From positions 1-41,079 of the forward strand of contig CAKQBG010000011.1 of the NCBI GenBank assembly GCA_934216145.1: a DNA stretch of 41,079 nt. Reading direction: 5' to 3'. Shown piece by piece: positions 27,013 to 41,001 of this stretch. Every line of letters starts with the position of its first letter. Position 1 is the first letter of the stretch. This DNA is from an uncultured Anaeroplasma sp. GTDB taxonomy: Bacteria; Bacillota_I; Bacilli_A; Acholeplasmatales; Anaeroplasmataceae. A program made the translations under genes and the position numbers. A model generated the notes under the pieces. That model saw nothing but the letters and a program-made list of their open reading frames with translations, searched no databases and was not told the DNA's origin.

Positions 27013-27204
27013 GAGTGTGTGGGCATGACATTAATCTTACTGGTGAAAATCTATTCATGGGTATTTACCGACAAGTGTAATGAACCTCAAGCAGTTATGA
27101 GTAATCCTATGAGTGAAGGAAGAGGTGTAGCAAAATCCTTGAGCTTACGAATAGAAACTTGATGAGGCTAAATGGTATGTTGATAAGGCTGCTAAACAAA
27201 CTGA
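27013..27204 (+). other. Unresolved decayed stretch
   Basis: There is no intact gene. Several short protein-like runs occur in different frames (HDINLTGENLFMGIYRQV; EPQAVMSNPMSEGRGVAKS; LDEAKWYVDKAAKQTEVL), each cut by stops or frame changes. CTCAAG near 27088 and CTTGAG near 27140 are complementary, so an RNA structure is an alternative reading. I cannot decide between a frameshifted coding relic and a fragment of a structured RNA such as a group II intron domain. Confidence 0.25.
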
Positions 27205-27366
27205 AGTCCTAATGATCTCAAGAAAATTGAAGATGTAAGTGTGAACGCATTCTTGATGATGCCTATTTTCATATATGATTTTCTTTGTATTCATCTTTTC
27301 CGTGATGGCAACGGCAGAATGAGCAGACTCTTTACAGTACAAATGTCAATAAAAAAATTGTACTAA
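27205..27366 (+). pseudogene. Fic-domain protein remnant
   Basis: A 53-codon open frame bounded by stops contains PIFIYDFLCIHLFRDGNGR followed by MSRLF. This matches the Fic active-site motif HxFx(D/E)GNGRxxR and its preceding hydrophobic helix. Fic enzymes transfer AMP or related groups from nucleotides to proteins. The frame has no start codon with a ribosome site, is entered through an upstream stop (27202) and stops soon after the motif, so only the core of a much longer gene survives. Part of the missing upstream protein may lie in other frames (LDEAKWYVDKAAKQTEVL at about 27153-27206). No intact antitoxin or partner is visible. Confidence 0.72.
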
Positions 27367-28383: not shown

Positions 28384-28421
28384 TGAAAAAAATTAAACAA
28401 AGTGAGGATGTTATATGGTGA
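28383..28421 (+). CDS. Possible 12-residue leader ORF
   Basis: ATG 28383 overlaps the preceding stop (TAATG). The frame reads MKKIKQSEDVIW and ends on TGA overlapping the start of the next lipoprotein gene. It could couple translation across the gap or be the relic of another duplicated copy, since it begins like the gene at 29347 (ATGAAAAAAATTAA). Confidence 0.25.
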   Translation: MKKIKQSEDVIW

Positions 28422-28867
28422 AAATAATTAGACAAATCTGTAATTTAATAGGAAGTTTAATTCTTGTATTTTGTATTATTTTTTGTCTTGTCGGATGTAG
28501 TGATAAAGAAAAAAAATATGATGTAAGCGTTAAAGTGAAAAATAGTGAAGGCTCTACATGGATATTTGTTCCAAAAGTAGACACAATGAAATGCGAAATT
28601 TATTATACTGGAACAGAAATAACATTTTGGGTTGATTCATATAATCTACCTAATCATCCTGATTATAAAGATATTTGGTTTGAAGTGGATAAAAGTCCCA
28701 ATTTAATTTATGGCTCTCTTGGTAAAATTGACCAAAAGAAATATGAAGCAAAACCTAAATCTATTTGTGAACCCGGAGAATATTATTATCATGTTTATAC
28801 TGAGTCACCATCTGATTTATGGAATTGTAGAACAGCATATTTGTATATTACAGTTATTGAATATTAA
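28415..28867 (+). CDS. Small lipoprotein, tandem paralogue copy 1
   Basis: 150 residues. The lipobox is LVGC (Cys28). The mature part is about 120 residues: an Ig-like or beta-sandwich-looking domain with NSEGSTWIF, FWVDSYNLPNHP and a C-terminal AYLYITVIEY strand. Two cysteines near the end (SICEPGEYYY and LWNCRTA) might pair; only the first is conserved in the neighbouring paralogue. The family is unknown to me. The ribosome region CAAAGTGAGGA recurs before the next gene, so the leader was duplicated along with the coding part. Confidence 0.8.
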   Translation: MVKIIRQICNLIGSLILVFCIIFCLVGCSDKEKKYDVSVKVKNSEGSTWIFVPKVDTMKCEIYYTGTEITFWVDSYNLPNHPDYKDIWFEVDKSPNLIYGSLGKIDQKKYEAKPKSICEPGEYYYHVYTESPSDLWNCRTAYLYITVIEY

Positions 28868-28885
28868 ATCAAAGTGAGGATAAGT

Positions 28886-29335
28886 ATGAGAAAAATGATT
28901 AGGCAAATTTTTAATTTAGTAGGAAGTTTAATTCTTATATTTTGTATAAGTTTTAGCCTTGGCGGTTGTAGTACTAAAGAAAAAAAATATGGCGTAAGTA
29001 TTAAGGTAAGAAATAGTGAAGGCTCTACATGGATTTTTACTCCGGACGTAGATGAATTGAAATACGAATTTGCTTACACTGGAAAAGAAATGAGATTTTG
29101 GGTTGATTCATGGAATCTTCCTAATCATCCACGTTGGAGCAATGACTGGTTTGAACCGAATACCAGTGGACCAAATGTAATTCATGCTTCTCTTGGGAAA
29201 GTTGGACAAATGCATTATGAGGAAAAACCTAAATTCGTTTGTGGAAGAGGAGAATATTATTATCGTATTTATGCTGATTCAACATCTGATTTATGGATTT
29301 CGAGAACAGTATTTTTGTACATTACAGTTATTTAA
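28886..29335 (+). CDS. Small lipoprotein, tandem paralogue copy 2
   Basis: 149 residues from ATG 28886, chosen because GTGAGGA lies just upstream; the GTG at 28874 is part of that site. The lipobox is LGGC (Cys28). It aligns with the previous gene along its whole length, sharing NSEGSTWIF, WVDSxNLPNHP, GEYYY and the closing LYITVI strand, but it has drifted substantially between the blocks. That points to an old or fast-evolving duplication. Its stop codon overlaps the ribosome site of the next gene (TAAGGAGAGG). Confidence 0.8.
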   Translation: MRKMIRQIFNLVGSLILIFCISFSLGGCSTKEKKYGVSIKVRNSEGSTWIFTPDVDELKYEFAYTGKEMRFWVDSWNLPNHPRWSNDWFEPNTSGPNVIHASLGKVGQMHYEEKPKFVCGRGEYYYRIYADSTSDLWISRTVFLYITVI

Positions 29336-31037: not shown

Positions 31038-31044
31038 TTATGAA

Positions 31045-31216
31045 TAAAAAAATCCTTAAGAACATATAATATTCTTAAGGACGCTAATTGTGCGCGGTGC
31101 CACCTTAATTCCAATTGCTTGGCTCTTTATATTAAAGTTTTAACCAATTCTCTTATATACCGGTTTGATGCTTACACTATTCATCAATCGCTTAAAACTA
31201 AAGTATATAAAATACT
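31045..31216 (-). promoter_or_regulatory. Tryptophan T-box riboswitch leader of trpS
   Basis: On the minus strand the T-box core reads AAGGTGGCACCGCG (31093-31106). Its UGGC bulge suits a tRNA with discriminator G, as in tRNA-Trp. A UGG specifier candidate (31144-31146) sits next to the closing strand of stem I (AGTTTTAA with TTAAAACT). The terminator is a strong stem (31052-31062 with 31072-31081) followed by seven T residues (31045-31051). The leader is short but complete and ends about 20 bases before the start codon. Confidence 0.93.
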
Positions 31217-31222
31217 GATTTA

Positions 31223-31251
31223 AGTTTAGTCTTTTTTTAAAATTATGTCAA
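31223..31251 (-). promoter_or_regulatory. Sigma-A promoter of the trpS T-box leader
   Basis: On the minus strand a perfect TTGACA is followed after 17 bases by TAAACT. Transcription would begin near 31216, just ahead of stem I of the T-box. Confidence 0.8.
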
Positions 31252-31446: not shown

Positions 31447-31482
31447 AGTTGATAAAATTAAATGAAAAGGGGAATGATTATT

Positions 31483-33648
31483 ATGAAATTAAAAAAATTG
31501 ACATTTGCAGGGCTATCGGTATTCACCGTTATTGCGTTAGCGTCATGTGGTAATACGACACCTAGTGCATCTTCAGGAGGCACATCTACTCCTAACTCAA
31601 CTTCTGGTAGTTCTACATCTACTGGTACAAAAGGTGATACAGAAAAAACTGACTCAGAGCTTTATAATGAAATTTTAGGTGATTTCTATTCAGTATATAA
31701 GGATTCTCTTGATGAAGAGGATACTGATGTAAAATATGCTAAAATGGCTTTAGCGGAAGCAAAATTATTATCTTCTGGTGTAATGGTACCAACTCGTTCA
31801 GATGGAGGTCGTTATGGAATTTCTAGTGTGGCCCCATATAGTATTGATTATGCAAAGGCTGGTAATGATGATGATAGATTCCATCAAGCTTTAGTTACAA
31901 CAACTACAATAAAAAATAATGACCGTACAACAATGAAGGCTAAGTGGAATGAGCTTAAAGGTACTGGTGCTTATGAGAAATGGGCAAAGAACTATTTAGC
32001 TCAACAAAATTATATATTAAAGGATACTTATAATATTCCATATGCAACAGATCCTCAAACATGGGACGCTCTTGCTACATCTAGAGCTTCTGATAGTGAA
32101 GCTATTGTTAATACCTATGATGGATTAGTTGAGTATGACGTTGAGGGTACGTTAAAGATGGCTTTAGCAGAAAATTATAGTGTATCAGATGATGGTTTAA
32201 CATATACATTTAAGATTCGTCAAGGTGTTAAATGGGTTGATTCTCAAGGTAGAGCATTAACCGATGTTAAAGCTGATGATTTCGTTGCCGGATTCCAACA
32301 TATGCTAGATAGTGCAGCTGGTCTTGAATATCTAGTTGATGGAAAGATTACTGGTGTAAGTGATTATTTGGCAGGCTTATGTGGTTTTGATGATGTAGGT
32401 GTTAAGGCGGTAGATGATTACACTTTAACATATACACTTGAGGAAAAAACTTCATATTTTATGTCAATGCTAGGATATGGTGTATTTGCTCCATTAAGTA
32501 GATCTTATTATACATCAAAGGGTGGTAAATTTGGTTCTGATTATGATGCTACAGCTTCAGATTATACATATGGTAAAACAGCAGATGATATTGCATATTG
32601 TGGACCATATTTAGTTACTAATAATACAGCAGAATCAAGAATTGTATTCTCTGAGAATCCTTTATATTACAATAAAGATAATGTTAATATTAAAACTATT
32701 ACTTGGTTATATAATGATGGAACTGATGTAACAAAAGCTTATACAGATTATAAGAATAAGACTATTGATTCTTGTGCTTTAACAACTGCGACTGTTGAAT
32801 TAGCTAAGAATGATAAATTATTTAATGATTATGTATTCGTTAATTCTACAGGAACAACTTCATATATGGCATTCTATAATGTAAATCGTAAGGCATATTC
32901 AAATGTAAATGATGGAACATTAGTATCAACTAAGACTAGTGTAGAAAAGGCTAATAGTAATACAGCATTACAAAATACTCACTTTAGATTAGCATTATCA
33001 TTCGCATTTGATAGATCAGCTTATAATTCACAACTTCTTGGTAGTGATGTAGCTACTAACTCATTAAGAAATAGCTATACTCCTGGTGATTTCGTTCAAT
33101 TATCAAAGACTGTAACTGTTAAGGTTAATGGTGAAGATAAGACATTTGCTGCTGGTACATATTATGGTGAAATCGTTCAAGCTCAATTAACAAGTGATGG
33201 TTCTACAATCAAGGTTTGGGATTCAACTGCTGAGGAAGGAAAGGGCTCAAGTGATGGATTTGATGGTTGGTATAATGCTGAAGAGGCTGTTAAGGAATTA
33301 AATGCTGCACTTAAAGAATTAAGCTCTTTAAATATTTCTTCAAGTAATCCAATCAAGATTGATTATCCATATTATAGTGGAAGTCAAGCTTATGCTAACC
33401 AAGCTCAAGCATATAAGAAGTCTATCGAAGCAGTTCTTGGTGGAAAGGTAATTGTTAATCTTGTTGAATGCTCAACACCTTCAAGCTGGTATTATGCAGG
33501 ATATTATACAGAAACAGGAGCACAAGCTAATTATGATTTCTATGATGTTTCTGGTTGGGGTCCTGATTATCTAGATCCATCTACTTATCTTGATACATTC
33601 TTACCTGATGGTGCTGGTTATATGGTTAAATGTATTGGTTTATTCTAA
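31483..33648 (+). CDS. oppA: Oligopeptide-binding lipoprotein with apparent circular permutation
   Basis: 721 residues from ATG 31483, preceded by AAAAGGGG at ten bases. The lipobox is LASC (Cys22), followed by a Ser/Thr/Gly linker to about 50. Residues 176-721 match the start and body of the AmiA/AliA/OppA solute-binding fold in normal order: YATDPQTWD, NTYDGLVEYD, LAENYSVSDDGLTYTFKIRQ and finally GWGPDYLDPSTYLDTFLPD. The chain ends 18 residues after that motif, where relatives continue for roughly 120 residues. That missing segment is recognisable instead at 50-165 (YAKMALAEAKLLSSGVMVP, GGRYGISSVAPYS, a closing MKAKW helix). The N- and C-terminal parts of the fold thus appear swapped. It should deliver peptides to the OppBCDF importer encoded next. 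Confidence 0.88.
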   Translation: MKLKKLTFAGLSVFTVIALASCGNTTPSASSGGTSTPNSTSGSSTSTGTKGDTEKTDSELYNEILGDFYSVYKDSLDEEDTDVKYAKMALAEAKLLSSGVMVPTRSDGGRYGISSVAPYSIDYAKAGNDDDRFHQALVTTTTIKNNDRTTMKAKWNELKGTGAYEKWAKNYLAQQNYILKDTYNIPYATDPQTWDALATSRASDSEAIVNTYDGLVEYDVEGTLKMALAENYSVSDDGLTYTFKIRQGVKWVDSQGRALTDVKADDFVAGFQHMLDSAAGLEYLVDGKITGVSDYLAGLCGFDDVGVKAVDDYTLTYTLEEKTSYFMSMLGYGVFAPLSRSYYTSKGGKFGSDYDATASDYTYGKTADDIAYCGPYLVTNNTAESRIVFSENPLYYNKDNVNIKTITWLYNDGTDVTKAYTDYKNKTIDSCALTTATVELAKNDKLFNDYVFVNSTGTTSYMAFYNVNRKAYSNVNDGTLVSTKTSVEKANSNTALQNTHFRLALSFAFDRSAYNSQLLGSDVATNSLRNSYTPGDFVQLSKTVTVKVNGEDKTFAAGTYYGEIVQAQLTSDGSTIKVWDSTAEEGKGSSDGFDGWYNAEEAVKELNAALKELSSLNISSSNPIKIDYPYYSGSQAYANQAQAYKKSIEAVLGGKVIVNLVECSTPSSWYYAGYYTETGAQANYDFYDVSGWGPDYLDPSTYLDTFLPDGAGYMVKCIGLF

Positions 33649-35325: not shown

Positions 35326-36336
35326 ATGAATGAAGAATTGTTTGATTTAAGTGAATTAGATTTATCTGAAGAGGAATTGTTCTCTAGAGTAGATAATTCT
35401 TTAGCTAATTCAGAAAAAATTACCGCTCCAAGATATTCTTATTGGAAAAGTGTATTTAGAGTTTTCTTTAAGAAAAAGATTAATATTATTATTTTGGTAT
35501 TATTAGCTATAGTAATAATATTTACATATATATACCCATTATTTTCTAATTATAATAGATTTGAATTCTTATTAGATAATAATGCAAAGCATTTATATCC
35601 TTGGGATGCAATGAATTATCATAATGATTATTCTTTAAAATGGATATTTGGTAGTGGTTCATCAGGCGAATCTACTTTTGATGCATTATGGGATGGTGCG
35701 AGAGTATCATTGACCCTAGCATTAATTTGTGCCGCAATAAATATAACTATAGGTGTTATTTTAGGTGCGTTATGGGGATTCTCAAAAAGAGTTGATATTA
35801 TAATGACAGAAATATACAACATTATTGCAAATGTGCCATATATTCTATATATTTCTGTATTTGTATTAATATTCTCATCAGGCTTTTGGCCATTTGTTTT
35901 AGCTTTGACACTAACAGGGTGGTTGAGTATTGCATATTTTATTCGTACACAGGTTATAATTATTAGAGATAGAGAATATAATTTAGCTTCACGTTGTTTA
36001 GGTACACCAATACTTAGATTAACTACTAAAAATATATTACCATATTTAACATCTATTATTGTTACCCTTATCGCAACAGAAATTCCCTCTTATATATCAT
36101 ATGAGGCCTTCTTATCATATTTAGGTTTAGGCTTATCAGGTGGAATTAATGGTGATACAACAAAGGGTATTACATCATTAGGTAATATGATATCACAAGC
36201 TCAAAGTGCAATGGTTACACCAGGCTGGGAATTTGAATTTTGGGCACCTGTATTAGTAGCTTCATTTGTAACTATTGTTTTATATGTTGTTGGACAAAAT
36301 TTAGGTGACGCAAGCGATCCAAGAACACATATGTAA
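35326..36336 (+). CDS. oppC: Oligopeptide ABC transporter permease OppC
   Basis: 336 residues. An acidic cytoplasmic N-tail (SELDLSEEELFSRVDNS) is followed by the OppC_N helix (about 48-72) and a permease domain of five helices. The EAA-type loop includes RCLGTPILRLTTKNILPYL near 225-243. The closing LGDASDPRTHM is characteristic of OppC/DppC. It has GAAAGGAAGG upstream. It pairs with OppB and contacts the OppD and OppF ATPases through its coupling helix. Confidence 0.93.
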   Translation: MNEELFDLSELDLSEEELFSRVDNSLANSEKITAPRYSYWKSVFRVFFKKKINIIILVLLAIVIIFTYIYPLFSNYNRFEFLLDNNAKHLYPWDAMNYHNDYSLKWIFGSGSSGESTFDALWDGARVSLTLALICAAINITIGVILGALWGFSKRVDIIMTEIYNIIANVPYILYISVFVLIFSSGFWPFVLALTLTGWLSIAYFIRTQVIIIRDREYNLASRCLGTPILRLTTKNILPYLTSIIVTLIATEIPSYISYEAFLSYLGLGLSGGINGDTTKGITSLGNMISQAQSAMVTPGWEFEFWAPVLVASFVTIVLYVVGQNLGDASDPRTHM

Positions 36337-36349
36337 AGGAGGTTTTATT

Positions 36350-38098
36350 ATGGAAGATAAAAAGGTTTTATTATCTTTAAAAAATGTTTGGGTTAAATTT
36401 AAAGTAAGAGGTAGAATCCTAACTGCTATAAGAGGAATCTCTTTAGATATATATGAAAATGAATCAATTGCGATTGTAGGAGAATCAGGTAGTGGTAAAT
36501 CTGTATTAACTAAAACATTTGCGGGAATGCTTGATTCTAATGGATACGTTAGTGATGGTGAGATTATTCTTAAGGATAAAGAGCTAGCTGATACTGATGC
36601 TTTATTAAATAGAAGAAGTAGAAAAATTATTGATGTTATATATAATAAGCTTAATAAATTTTCTAAGCTTGAATTTGGTAGTGAAACATTTAAAGAAATA
36701 TTAAATTTAAGTAGTGAAAAAAAGTCATTAATGGGACTTACTGATAATGAGGAAAAAGAAATTGGAGATTTAATTAATGACTATAATTATGATTTAGTTG
36801 AGGCATCTAATTTAAAGCAAACTCTTGATACTAAAAAGGAACATGAAAAAATATTAGAGCTTAATCAAAAGATTAAGGATTTGAAGAAGAAAATAGAGGA
36901 ATTAAATCAAAGAAAGCTTGAGCTTATAAAAAAACATAAGGAAGAATTAAAGAATAATAGTGAATATTTAAATGAATATGAAGCAAAAATGGCTTTATTA
37001 AATAAGAAATATCGTGAAGAAATTGAAGAGGAAATAACTGATGATGTTAAAATAAGAAATTTAAGAATAGCTAAGGAGGTATATCTTTCAGTAGGTAGAT
37101 ATTCTCATCATCAACAATTTGTTTATATTGTTAAACTATTATCATCACTTAAGAAAGCTATGAGAATTGGTGTTGATTTAAATGATTCTAATGCTTTAAA
37201 TAAGGTATTTGATACTGTAGTATTTAGAGTTGAATACATAAGCGAAACAGAAGAAAAAATTCATGGTGTATGTAATCTAGATTTAGCTAAGATTAAATAT
37301 ACAAAGGATTGGCAGCAAATTAGAGGTAGTCGTGTCGCAACTGTATTCCAAGACCCAATGACTTCGTTAAATCCTATTATTACTATTGGAAAGCAAATTA
37401 CATCAGTAATTATGAAGCATCAAAAATGCTCTATTGCTGAAGCTAAAATTAGAGCGATAGAGCTAATGGAGCGTGTTGGAATTAAGGATGCAGCTAATAG
37501 ATTTGATGATTATCCATTTCAATATTCAGGTGGTATGAGACAAAGAATTGTTATCGCGATTGCTTTATCATGTCAACCTAAAATATTAATTTGTGATGAG
37601 CCTACTACTGCACTAGATGTTACCATTCAGGCTCAAATATTAAAGCTAATTAAGGATTTACAAAAGGAATTTGGTTTTACTATTATTTTTATTACTCATG
37701 ATTTAGGAGTCGTTGCGAATATAGCTGATAGAGTAGCTGTATTATATGCAGGGCAAATTGTAGAATTAGGCACATGTAAGGATGTATTTTATGATCCAAG
37801 ACATCCTTATACTTGGGCATTATTATCATCATTACCTCAGCTTGCGGTAAAGGGTGAAAAGTTATATTCTATTTCAGGTACTCCACCATCATTATATAAT
37901 CAGGTTATTGGAGATCCTTTTGCACCAAGAAATCCTTATTGTTTAAAGATTGATACTATAAAGGATTCACCCATGTTTAAAATTTCTGAAACTCACTATG
38001 CTAAAACATGGTTATGTGATCCAAGAGCTCCTAAGCTTGAAAAGCCAGAAATTATTCAAAACATTCATGAAAAGCTATTAAAAGCATTTAATATTTAG
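36350..38098 (+). CDS. oppD: Oligopeptide ABC transporter ATPase OppD with long helical insertion
   Basis: 582 residues, against about 330-350 for most OppD. ATG 36350 is chosen for its AAAGGAGG site; an upstream GTG at 36305 overlaps oppC. Walker A is GESGSGKS at 44-51. The Q-loop Gln does not appear until residue 334 ([11 protein letters not shown]). Between them about 250 residues are inserted (roughly 75-320), including a charged coiled coil ([19 protein letters not shown]). After it come the signature [10 protein letters not shown], Walker [13 protein letters not shown], the H-loop ITHDL and the oligo_HPY C-terminal extension ([15 protein letters not shown]). All catalytic motifs are intact, so the protein should be active with OppF. 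Confidence 0.93.
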
Positions 38099-38114: not shown

Positions 38115-39440
38115 ATGGAATTGAATATGAAGGAGAAAAATGAAAAGCTTAATAATACCTCTAAAGTAAAGCATTTCCCAGAACATGGAGAAATTTTACC
38201 AAATGGTAAAGAGGTATTATTATCTTTAAAAAATGTTGATATTTCCTTTGGTAAAAGAGGTCATGCGCTAAAGGTTGTAAAAAATGCTAGCTTTGATATC
38301 TATAAGGGAGAAACATTTTCTCTTGTAGGTGAATCAGGAAGTGGAAAAACTACTATTGGTAGAGCTGTCATTAGAGTTAATCCTTTATCAAATGGTGAAA
38401 TATTATATAAGGGAGTAAGAATATCAGGTAAAATTCCTCATTCACTTGATAGAGAAGTAATAAGAAATATTCAAATGGTATTCCAAGACCCTGCGGCATC
38501 ATTAAATGAGCGTGCTACAGTTGACTATATTATTTCAGAGGGATTATATAATTTTCATTTATATGAGGATGAAAAGGATAGAGTTAACAAGGTGGAAAAT
38601 ATTATTAAGGAGGTAGGATTATTACCAGAGCATTTAACTAGATATCCTCATGAATTTTCAGGTGGACAACGTCAAAGAATAGGCTTAGCCCGCGCTATCG
38701 TCATGGAACCAGAGCTAATAGTAGCTGATGAGCCTATTTCAGCACTAGATGTTTCTATTCGTGCTCAGGTATTGAACTTATTAAAGAAATTTCAAGAGGA
38801 AAGAAATTTAACATATTTATTTATAGCTCATGATTTATCAATTGTTCGTTTTATTTCAGATAGAATTGGTGTAATATATAAAGGAGATATTGTAGAGATT
38901 GCCAGTGCGGAGGAGCTATTTGATTTCCCACTTCATCCTTATACAAGATCATTAATTTCGGCAATTCCTATTCCAGATCCTGAGCTTGAAAAGAATAAAT
39001 TATTATATACTTATGATCCTAGTATTCATGATTATAGTGTTGATAAGCCAGAGCTTGTTGATATTGGTAATGGCCATTTAGTATATGGTAATAAAAAGGA
39101 AATAGAGGAATATAAGAAAATAAGAGAATCAGGTATTACTCCTAAATCTATAACTATTTTAGATAGTAATGATCCTAGATTGACTGAACAACATAATGAG
39201 GAAATAAAGGTTGATAAAGAAGAAATAATGAATCAATCTCCTTATGATACAGGTTCTATGTGGTTTTCTATATTAGCTTTTTTCTTACCAATTTTTGGTT
39301 TGATAGCTTTACCTATTTTAAAGAAGCATAGGTTTTATAAAACCTTTAAATCGGTTAGAAAGGGCACAATTGTTGGCTTTTCAGTAATTGGTATATCTGT
39401 ACTAATTTTCTTAATCGCTCTATTAATTTCATTATTTTAG
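38115..39440 (+). CDS. oppF: Oligopeptide ABC transporter ATPase OppF with C-terminal membrane helices
   Basis: 441 residues from ATG 38115, preceded by TGGAGG; a TTG at 38100 is part of that site. Walker A is GESGSGKT starting at residue 72; Q-loop [11 protein letters not shown], signature FSGGQRQR, Walker [13 protein letters not shown] and H-loop IAHDL are all present, followed by the oligo_HPY segment ([15 protein letters not shown]). Unusually, an acidic linker then leads to two strongly hydrophobic segments (382-403 and 417-441), with a basic turn between them ([15 protein letters not shown]). OppF proteins are normally soluble, so this one appears to be membrane-anchored. It follows oppD by 16 bases. 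Confidence 0.92.
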
Positions 39441-39460: not shown

Positions 39461-40681
39461 ATGAGAAATGATTTAAAGCCTGTAGAAAAATTAGAAGTAA
39501 AAGATAATAAGGTTAAAATTAGAATTATTATTGTTGTCATAGCATTTATTATAGGTATTACAGCACTTATTTATGGATTTACTTCACTATTAGGTGGAGA
39601 AAGTGGTTATCAAAAGATAAATGTTGGAGATGATAATGCCTATATGGCAAATGATTTATCATTTAGCTATAATATTGGAGTTAATCCTAATAGAACTAAT
39701 ACAGAACTAAAGGATTTAATAAATCTATATTCAGATTATGTTGAATATTCTTATAAATTATTAGATCCTTATAATGAATATGAAAATGTTAATAATGTCT
39801 ATTATTTAAATAAGCATCCTAATGAGGTTATTAAAGTTGAACCTTTATTATATAATTCATTAAAGGAAATAAGTGATAAAGGTATGTTATATTATACCTA
39901 TTTAGAACCATTATATTATCAAACAACATCTATTATCTTAGGAAAAGAAGAAGGATTAGATGACTATAGTCCTTTACATAATAAAGATGTAAGGAATTAT
40001 TATGATGAAATTTATAGATATATAGTTAATTCTAGTATTTCATTAGAGATATTTGATGATTATATGGTTAGACTTAATGTTAATAATGAATATTTAAATT
40101 ATATTAATACTAATAAAATAGATTATATATTTAGCTTTGGTTATTTAAAGAATTCTGTCATGGTTGATTATATCGCAAGCTCATTGATTACTAAAGGATT
40201 TACATATGGTATTATTTCTAGTAATGATGGCTATACAAGAATATTAGGAGATAATGATGAATTTAATTACTCAATTTTAGACTATAATAAGAGAAGCTAT
40301 ATAGCATGTAGAGGAAGCTTTAAGGGTGAATATGCGATAGTTAATTTAAGGAATTATAATTATTATAGTAATGAAAATGAAAGAATATTTAGCTATAATG
40401 ATGAATTATACTCTTATTATATTAATGAAAGTGGAGAATATTTAAATACTAGAAAAAGCTTAATTATGTATAAAAATAATGGAGCATGTCTTAACGTAGC
40501 ATTAAATATGCTTGATTTATTTTTTAATGATTATAATAGTGATAAAATTTCTAATTTAGCAACTAATAATATTTACACTATCTATTGCAATAATTTCAAA
40601 ATTAATTATAATGATAATAATTTAAAGCTATCAAATTTTGAAACTGCTGATGGTAATAAATATGTAGAGGAGCTAATATGA
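39461..40681 (+). CDS. Membrane-anchored extracytoplasmic protein of the opp operon, unknown
   Basis: 406 residues from ATG 39461; a GTG at 39452 is less likely. The protein has a charged cytoplasmic N-tail, one membrane helix (about 22-45) and a long Tyr/Asn-rich extracytoplasmic domain without an evident active site. I do not recognise the family. A 20-base gap after oppF and an ATGA overlap with the next gene tie it to the importer operon. The TGA stop again supports the standard genetic code. Confidence 0.75.
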   Translation: MRNDLKPVEKLEVKDNKVKIRIIIVVIAFIIGITALIYGFTSLLGGESGYQKINVGDDNAYMANDLSFSYNIGVNPNRTNTELKDLINLYSDYVEYSYKLLDPYNEYENVNNVYYLNKHPNEVIKVEPLLYNSLKEISDKGMLYYTYLEPLYYQTTSIILGKEEGLDDYSPLHNKDVRNYYDEIYRYIVNSSISLEIFDDYMVRLNVNNEYLNYINTNKIDYIFSFGYLKNSVMVDYIASSLITKGFTYGIISSNDGYTRILGDNDEFNYSILDYNKRSYIACRGSFKGEYAIVNLRNYNYYSNENERIFSYNDELYSYYINESGEYLNTRKSLIMYKNNGACLNVALNMLDLFFNDYNSDKISNLATNNIYTIYCNNFKINYNDNNLKLSNFETADGNKYVEELI

Positions 40682-41001
40682 TTGAAAGAAATAAGAAATT
40701 AATAATTACATTAACTATTGTTTTACTAGCTACAAATGTTATAGCTGTACCATTTGTTATAATATTTAATAAAGGTGATTTTATTCCTTTATTTAATTTA
40801 GTATTAGCTTTAGTATTGTTATTATTAATTAATCATAGATCCAGATTTAAATTTCAGCTTGAATATCATGCTAAAAAATATAATAAGAAGCCAGATGAAA
40901 AGGCACTTAAGGAATGGAAGGACAAACAAAGAATTTATTGGATTACCTTTGGTATTACCATAATAGTTATGCTTATTAGTACATTAATAACATTTATTTA
41001 G
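40678..41001 (+). CDS. Small three-helix membrane protein, unknown
   Basis: 107 residues with three predicted membrane helices (about 6-28, 32-50 and 82-105) and a basic cytoplasmic loop between the second and third (RSRFKFQLEYHAKKYNKK). The ATG overlaps the previous TGA stop, so translation is coupled, with AGGAG upstream. The family is not recognised. It is last in the opp operon and directly followed by a hairpin. A helper of the importer or of the upstream anchored protein is possible but unproven. Confidence 0.75.
   Translation: MIERNKKLIITLTIVLLATNVIAVPFVIIFNKGDFIPLFNLVLALVLLLLINHRSRFKFQLEYHAKKYNKKPDEKALKEWKDKQRIYWITFGITIIVMLISTLITFI

Follow-up and report, generated by a model that had tools for sequence, protein, structure and literature searches.

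How does a peptide-binding lipoprotein come to carry, just behind its lipid anchor, a segment that its relatives carry at the end of the chain? The question is raised by P0001, a protein of 721 residues encoded in the window, the whole stretch of 41,079 nucleotides from an uncultured Anaeroplasma sp. analysed here, in whose positions all coordinates are counted (Table 1). Its open reading frame (ORF) has a second in-frame ATG upstream, at 31462. A sequence-only reading had claimed that this OppA-type protein is circularly permuted. The annotation SBP_bac_5 (PF00496; 161.8 bits against a gathering score of 32.4) covers only residues 224-710 and conceals the order of the segments. It is very probable, I propose, that P0001 is a peptide-binding lipoprotein of Cluster C (the OppA class) with a natural circular permutation, that the permutation arose once, within the long-OppB (AmiC) lineage of Opp systems, and that the genes downstream encode the peptide importer for which it is the putative receptor.

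The Pfam and fold matches listed for P0001 are all to the OppA class, and in sequence and fold it has the core of an AmiA/Ali protein, with 34-36% identity to the pneumococcal AmiA, AliB, AliC and AliD (PDB 8a42, 8qlj, 8qlh and 8qlc) over 486-489 structurally aligned residues. The model of the whole protein is confident, and its structural alignment to these proteins ran in sequence order only. Where their chains close with a C-terminal segment and helix alpha19, that of P0001 does not, for its segment of that kind lies at about residues 54-160. Searched against PDB with phmmer, P0001 aligned over residues 182-706 to AmiA 15-497 and, separately, over residues 75-166 to AmiA 535-622, that is, in swapped order. 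From a single sequence the second match is weak (independent E-values of 1.2 for AmiA, 0.73 for AliB and 0.0063 for AliC); from a profile of 37 homologues the block matches at 3e-6 for AmiA, 5.8e-7 for AliB, 2.4e-7 for AliC and 5.6e-8 for AliD. The C-terminal segment of all four has its homologue in residues ~54-160, and residues 179-721 match the remainder of the Ami/Ali chains, stopping where that segment would begin. When the block from 52 permuted sequences is set against the chain ends of canonical proteins at 18 of 38 such loci, hhalign gives a probability of 99.0 and an E-value of 6.2e-18, with 95 columns in order.

Canonical relatives doubled head to tail give one continuous match to P0001 from end to end, and its break points meet. 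On doubled L113, whose unit is 634 residues, P0001 52-720 lies on 508-1141, the start at 508 adjoining the end at 507; the corresponding match begins at 525 and closes at 517 in L112, at 552 and 546 in L143, and at 493 and 472 in L103 (there for P0001 69-709). By Smith-Waterman alignment to the doubled sequences, with 200 block-shuffled controls per reference, the real protein scored above the best shuffle for three of the four references (888 vs 857, 852 vs 833 and 597 vs 570). For L143 the real score of 609 fell below the best shuffle, 619 (shuffle mean 587.2, standard deviation 6.9). This doubled-reference alignment had been put forward in the sequence-only reading as a check, and since both parts are homologous to their counterparts and the permutation-aware alignment joins them, an AmiA/Ali-type oligopeptide-binding lipoprotein in circularly permuted order is supported by sequence. 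The motifs it had named are all there: YAKMALAEAKLLSSGVMVP at residues 85-103, GGRYGISSVAPYS at 108-120, MKAKW at 151-155, YATDPQTWD at 187-195 and LAENYSVSDDGLTYTF from 228. So is GWGPDYLDPSTYLDTFLPD, at 691-709, though the chain ends 12 residues later and not 18 as had been counted.

Is the order private to this genome? A search of related genomes, another check suggested, says not: the block precedes the core in 82 of 82 ORFs at the 80 loci kept of 241 confirmed. In P0001 and its 120 listed homologues (the best 120 of 5906 proteins found) the distance between the C-end and the point where the GWG motif begins is always exactly 31 residues, 121 of 121. The order occurs in records named for isolates, Roseburia hominis An869 (L013), R. 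inulinivorans DSM 16841 (L014), Fusicatenibacter saccharivorans (L007) and Butyrivibrio sp. VCB2006 (L067), and in many metagenome-assembled genomes (MAGs). At two loci (L046 and L049) there is a second permuted gene about 7 kb away.

Relatives outside the permuted clade carry the block at the chain end. In loci L081-L143 it stands before the core in 12 ORFs (eight of them refetches of genomes already sampled), after it in 38, and is without a match in 14 (11 distant binding proteins and three cut or split ORFs); a further locus set, which includes L208-L210, has 22 before, 22 after and 3 with neither, some being repeat fetches. The sequence-only reading had said that normal relatives ending in the same way would speak against it. 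They do end so within the clade, all of which shares the order, and relatives beyond it are canonical; the objection therefore applies only inside the clade. Its proposed route of duplication, fusion and truncation fared less well, since none of the ORFs scored, these two sets included, carried the block at both ends, and fusion with a paralogue could also have given the result. The long canonical ORFs of L106-L109 (739-782 residues) were considered as intermediates and rejected, since they are extended at the N-terminus and carry the block last.

How widely the two orders are spread was gauged by even draws of genomes, which count the centre genome and take their class or family label from it. 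The class of G001, a Roseburia hominis genome, gave 5 permuted and 1 canonical among 291 genomes; that of G300 gave 0 and 18 among 299 at E 1e-60. The family of G001 gave 5 and 3 among 150 (G1201, G1147, G1079 and G1096 being classed from match ranges only), and the family of G003, an Anaeroplasma genome, 14 and 3 among 55, with all 17 orders read. No genome in these two family draws had both orders at the cut-offs used. Since scoring was limited to a number of candidates in each genome (3 in the class draws and one other search, 4 in a further search, 7 in the family of G001 and up to 20 in that of G003), the genome counts are lower bounds.

The place of the cut can be read against AliD. According to the available text of PMC11192437, lobe 1 of AliD consists of domain I (29-63, 191-296 and 583-617) and domain II (64-190), lobe 2 of domain III (297-582), and the C-terminal helix alpha19 of residues 622-652, while W498 and D501 hold the N-terminus of the peptide, D501 binding its amine. 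One passage there swaps the names of the lobes, and the paper's explicit definition is followed here. AliD numbering was taken as the profile-alignment chain index plus 25 and mapped onto P0001 by hand; it is checked by its recovery of residues named in that text (G39, Y50, A52, D53, W498, V499, D501, I603 and N608). The cut then falls between AliD ~525 and 528, inside domain III, some 55 residues short of the lobe crossing in AliD numbering, which does not bear out the sequence-only reading's placing of the new termini near the hinge. The crossings map to P0001 ~107/108 and ~457/458, and the new ends sit in the variable loop beyond the GL motif that comes after DPSTYL.

By sequence, the old C-terminal segment of some 105 residues stands ahead of the old N-terminus. 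The joint made in this way is conserved: its consensus, GTGTYExWAKxYLxxKGYT, is kept in 37 homologues, a helix is predicted at 164-174, and the VIA alignments to four Ami/Ali chains begin at model residues 178-180. By the mapping onto AliD, alpha19 would have turned into a connector to the old N-terminus. Both lobes would be intact, lobe 1 now continuous (~108-457) and lobe 2 split (54-107 and 458-721), which would reverse the canonical layout and leave the number of crossings at two.

It follows from a cut in lobe 2, on the AliD limits, that the lipid anchor would tether that lobe. In the Ami/Ali proteins the order is canonical with the block at the C-end, hence the anchor is on lobe 1; in P0001 it has probably moved to lobe 2, on a longer flexible linker. 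The lipobox, LASC, ends in Cys22, which is invariant across 37 aligned homologues. In permuted proteins the distance from this cysteine to the first helix has a median of 36 residues (12-57; 37 rows), against 7-18 from cysteine to core start in 12 canonical proteins, the end points of the two measures being not exactly comparable. The predicted local distance difference test score (pLDDT) of the structure model is below 50 over residues 1-52, has ten-residue means of 88-97 over 61-110, and in the lobe 1 part of the block averages 68 at 121-130 and 88-96 elsewhere. The mode of peptide binding would be that of AliD and AliB, with the amine bound by D695 together with W692; the tryptophan and aspartate that the available AliD text assigns to the peptide N-terminus are conserved in the P0001 family as well, both invariant in 37 aligned rows. 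The bound peptide would then be handed to OppBC, on which docking may differ from the canonical case.

It may be, with about even chances, that the permutation is neutral, its ends in a variable surface loop altering neither binding, tethering nor docking. The cut does lie in such a loop, the pocket residues have been kept, and the permease groups with AmiC/AmiD-type systems, long OppB being found on both sides of the split. Against neutrality stand the retention over a wide clade of the order, of the joint and of the length after GWG, and the longer linker, none of which is proof of selection.

A permuted receptor might also belong to an importer unlike the canonical ones. The gene for P0001 adjoins genes for OppB, OppC, OppD and OppF, as is the case for SBP_bac_5 / Cluster C peptide binders, and most loci with enough flank have the order binding protein, OppB, OppC, OppD, OppF, uncharacterised protein. 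Canonical Ami-like operons share the long OppB (498-520 residues in L174-L177, L186, L188 and L189), and their OppD (354-383 residues) and OppF (315-341 residues) are without insert or membrane tail. The insert in the window's OppD is of about 200 residues and rich in lysine and glutamate. OppD has at least 480 residues in 72 of the 78 permuted loci that have one; in the other six it has 355-431, and those of L017 and L064 are possibly broken ORFs. By a hydropathy window, C-terminal membrane helices are predicted for OppF in 65 of 75 permuted loci vs none of 19 canonical loci; four from the deepest-branching group are among the ten permuted loci without them. Membrane helices are unexpected in an ATPase subunit. 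At E 0.001 neither Pfam nor NCBIfam matches the 409-residue protein, and relatives of it are found in 60 of 88 permuted loci (some loci end earlier), 59 of them with the N-terminal membrane helix. A second protein at the end of the cluster (40678-41001) has predicted membrane helices and no Pfam or NCBIfam match.

In the Mollicute Opp system (NCBIfam MMSYN1_0165 to 0169) OppD carries its insert at the corresponding place. The Mollicute OppD model covers the window's OppD from end to end in a single match, vs two pieces for the short OppDs of L174 and L211; the score of the window's protein is 714.5 bits, below the cut-off of 740 though full length. Mollicute models are the best NCBIfam matches of the window's OppB, OppC and OppF too, and P0001 itself scores 135.1 bits with MMSYN1_0169 against a cut-off of 650; the Mollicute permeases are distant from the window's in the OppB+OppC tree. 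Mollicute OppA was tried as a permuted relative and rejected, for where the block is found it follows the core: weakly in the six proteins above the family cut-off (E 1-5), at E 6e-3 or better in most other Mollicute-type loci, with one weak exception. L182 and L183 have no block match at E 1e-3.

That these traits make up a distinct class of importer is a tentative idea, rather doubtful as a whole: a permuted receptor tethered by lobe 2 and presented differently to OppBC, a long insert in OppD, a membrane anchor on OppF itself and an extra membrane protein of the 409-residue type, spread from relatives of Anaeroplasma to gut Clostridia and Erysipelotrichaceae.

The trees bear on the origin. 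With the block left out, one branch of the core tree of the binding proteins parts 26 permuted from 13 canonical rows (100/99), and a quick core tree of 73 rows makes the same split with a support of 98. A tree of OppB+OppC has a single permuted clade (99, 43 rows) beside AmiC/AmiD-type systems (100). The last two carry Shimodaira-Hasegawa-like approximate likelihood ratio supports only and count L182 among the canonical rows, and the OppB+OppC tree warns of long branches meeting. In the core and OppB+OppC trees it is rows from the Anaeroplasma genome's family that branch deepest among the permuted ones, and Clostridia and Erysipelotrichaceae are nested within the permuted clade (100/99, 13 rows in the core tree; 100, 32 rows in the OppB+OppC tree, where the Clostridia row L017 falls outside). 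This depth and nesting suggest an origin near Anaeroplasma and later transfer into Clostridia and Erysipelotrichaceae. The row nearest to the window is an uncultured Anaeroplasma, at 66% in the core and 80% in OppB+OppC.

A different history, that the N-terminal block was fused from a resident paralogue (a canonical binding protein of the same bacterial family) and replaced a lost C-end, draws on the block tree. There the permuted block neighbours the canonical C-blocks of L208 and L210 (95/88, or 97/89.7 with L209 added), while in the core trees L208-L210 fall outside the permuted plus Ami group. The block tree thus favours L208-L210 as the sister of the permuted clade, and the core tree Ami. 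The conflict is not significant by approximately unbiased tests: forcing permuted and Ami together on the block tree, whose alignment has only 107-125 columns, gives p 0.078, and on the core tree p is 0.323 for permuted with L208-L210 and 0.398 for permuted with Ami and L177. As neither sister is rejected a hybrid origin could be accommodated, but I consider it unlikely. L208, L209 and L210 are canonical-order operons from the family of the Anaeroplasma genome whose OppF-type ORFs run to 874-926 residues.

Two other explanations can be dealt with briefly. That an unrelated domain stands in front of a chain merely truncated at its C-end is very improbable, for although the isolated block, weakly modelled, had no significant Foldseek match, it is homologous to exactly the missing segment, in order; and an artefact of assembly or frameshift, for which no supporting point was found, is hardly conceivable when isolate-named records and many MAGs have the same order.

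Relatives among the OpuAC/ProX-type glycine-betaine binding proteins differ by domain dislocation, in a substrate class unlike that of P0001. In open-licence PubMed Central papers, the literature searched, no description of a permuted OppA-class protein was found, in keeping with the sequence-only reading, which knew of no example in the family. One natural permutation of an ABC-transporter receptor was found there, the glucose-binding lipoprotein TpMglB-2 (Tp0684; PMC4990184), other matches looking incidental by title or the start of the abstract. The authors on TpMglB-2, in the text available, propose the name 'Cluster Bc' and mention membrane anchoring as a possible reason for the permutation. 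Both are natural, clade-wide permutations of a lipid-anchored binding protein. TpMglB-2 has the Cluster B/Type I sugar fold, with the N-terminal strands of E. coli MglB near its C-terminus and a fourth crossing needed (PMC4990184, same text), whereas in P0001 it is the old C-end of a Cluster C peptide binder that has moved to the front, with two crossings by mapping. Does it matter for docking and transport which lobe is anchored? A clade-wide case in named isolates of Roseburia, Fusicatenibacter and Butyrivibrio makes the question testable.

Table 1. Parts of P0001 and genes of the adjoining importer cluster, in window positions
Feature	Position	Strand	Basis or remark
P0001, permuted peptide-binding lipoprotein	31483..33648	+	ORF, Pfam SBP_bac_5, homologues, segment order
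Signal peptide and lipobox, residues 1-22	31483..31548	+	read from sequence
Disordered Ser/Thr-rich linker, residues 23-56	31549..31650	+	low pLDDT
Moved block, lobe 2 part, residues 57-107 (AliD ~528-582)	31651..31803	+	profile alignment, AliD domain limits, lobe mapping by hand
Moved block, lobe 1 part, residues 108-160 (AliD 583-617, the third segment of domain I, and the first part of C-terminal helix alpha19)	31804..31962	+	profile alignment, hhalign, AliD limits
New joint, old C-terminus to old N-terminus, residues 161-178	31963..32016	+	homologue conservation
Former N-terminal part, residues 179-457 (domains I and II of lobe 1)	32017..32853	+	VIA alignment starts, AliD limits
Remainder of lobe 2 up to the new C-terminus, GYMVKCIGLF (residues 458-721)	32854..33645	+	constant distance to GWG motif
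W692 to D695, counterparts of AliD W498 and D501	33556..33567	+	homologue alignment, AliD paper
OppB/AmiC-type permease, 528 residues	33733..35319	+	large insert between first and second predicted membrane helices
OppC-type permease	35326..36336	+	family match
OppD-type ATPase, long insert after Walker A region	36350..38098	+	single full-length MMSYN1_0167 match
OppF-type ATPase, C-terminal pair of predicted membrane helices (from ~379 and ~414)	38115..39440	+	hydropathy window only
Conserved uncharacterised protein, 409 residues, one N-terminal membrane helix	39452..40681	+	same gene cluster

Elsewhere in the window, at about 31040-31240 on the reverse strand, AAGGTGGCACCGCG is followed by a hairpin and a run of T, upstream of a gene that by its sequence is tryptophanyl-tRNA synthetase-like. 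The region resembles a T-box, and Rfam lists none there at the gathering score. At 27095-27255 there is a match to a group II intron domain (RF02001, 47.3 bits). The ORFs at 28415-28867 and 28874-29335, next to each other, are small and lipoprotein-like and by eye look like paralogues of one another.
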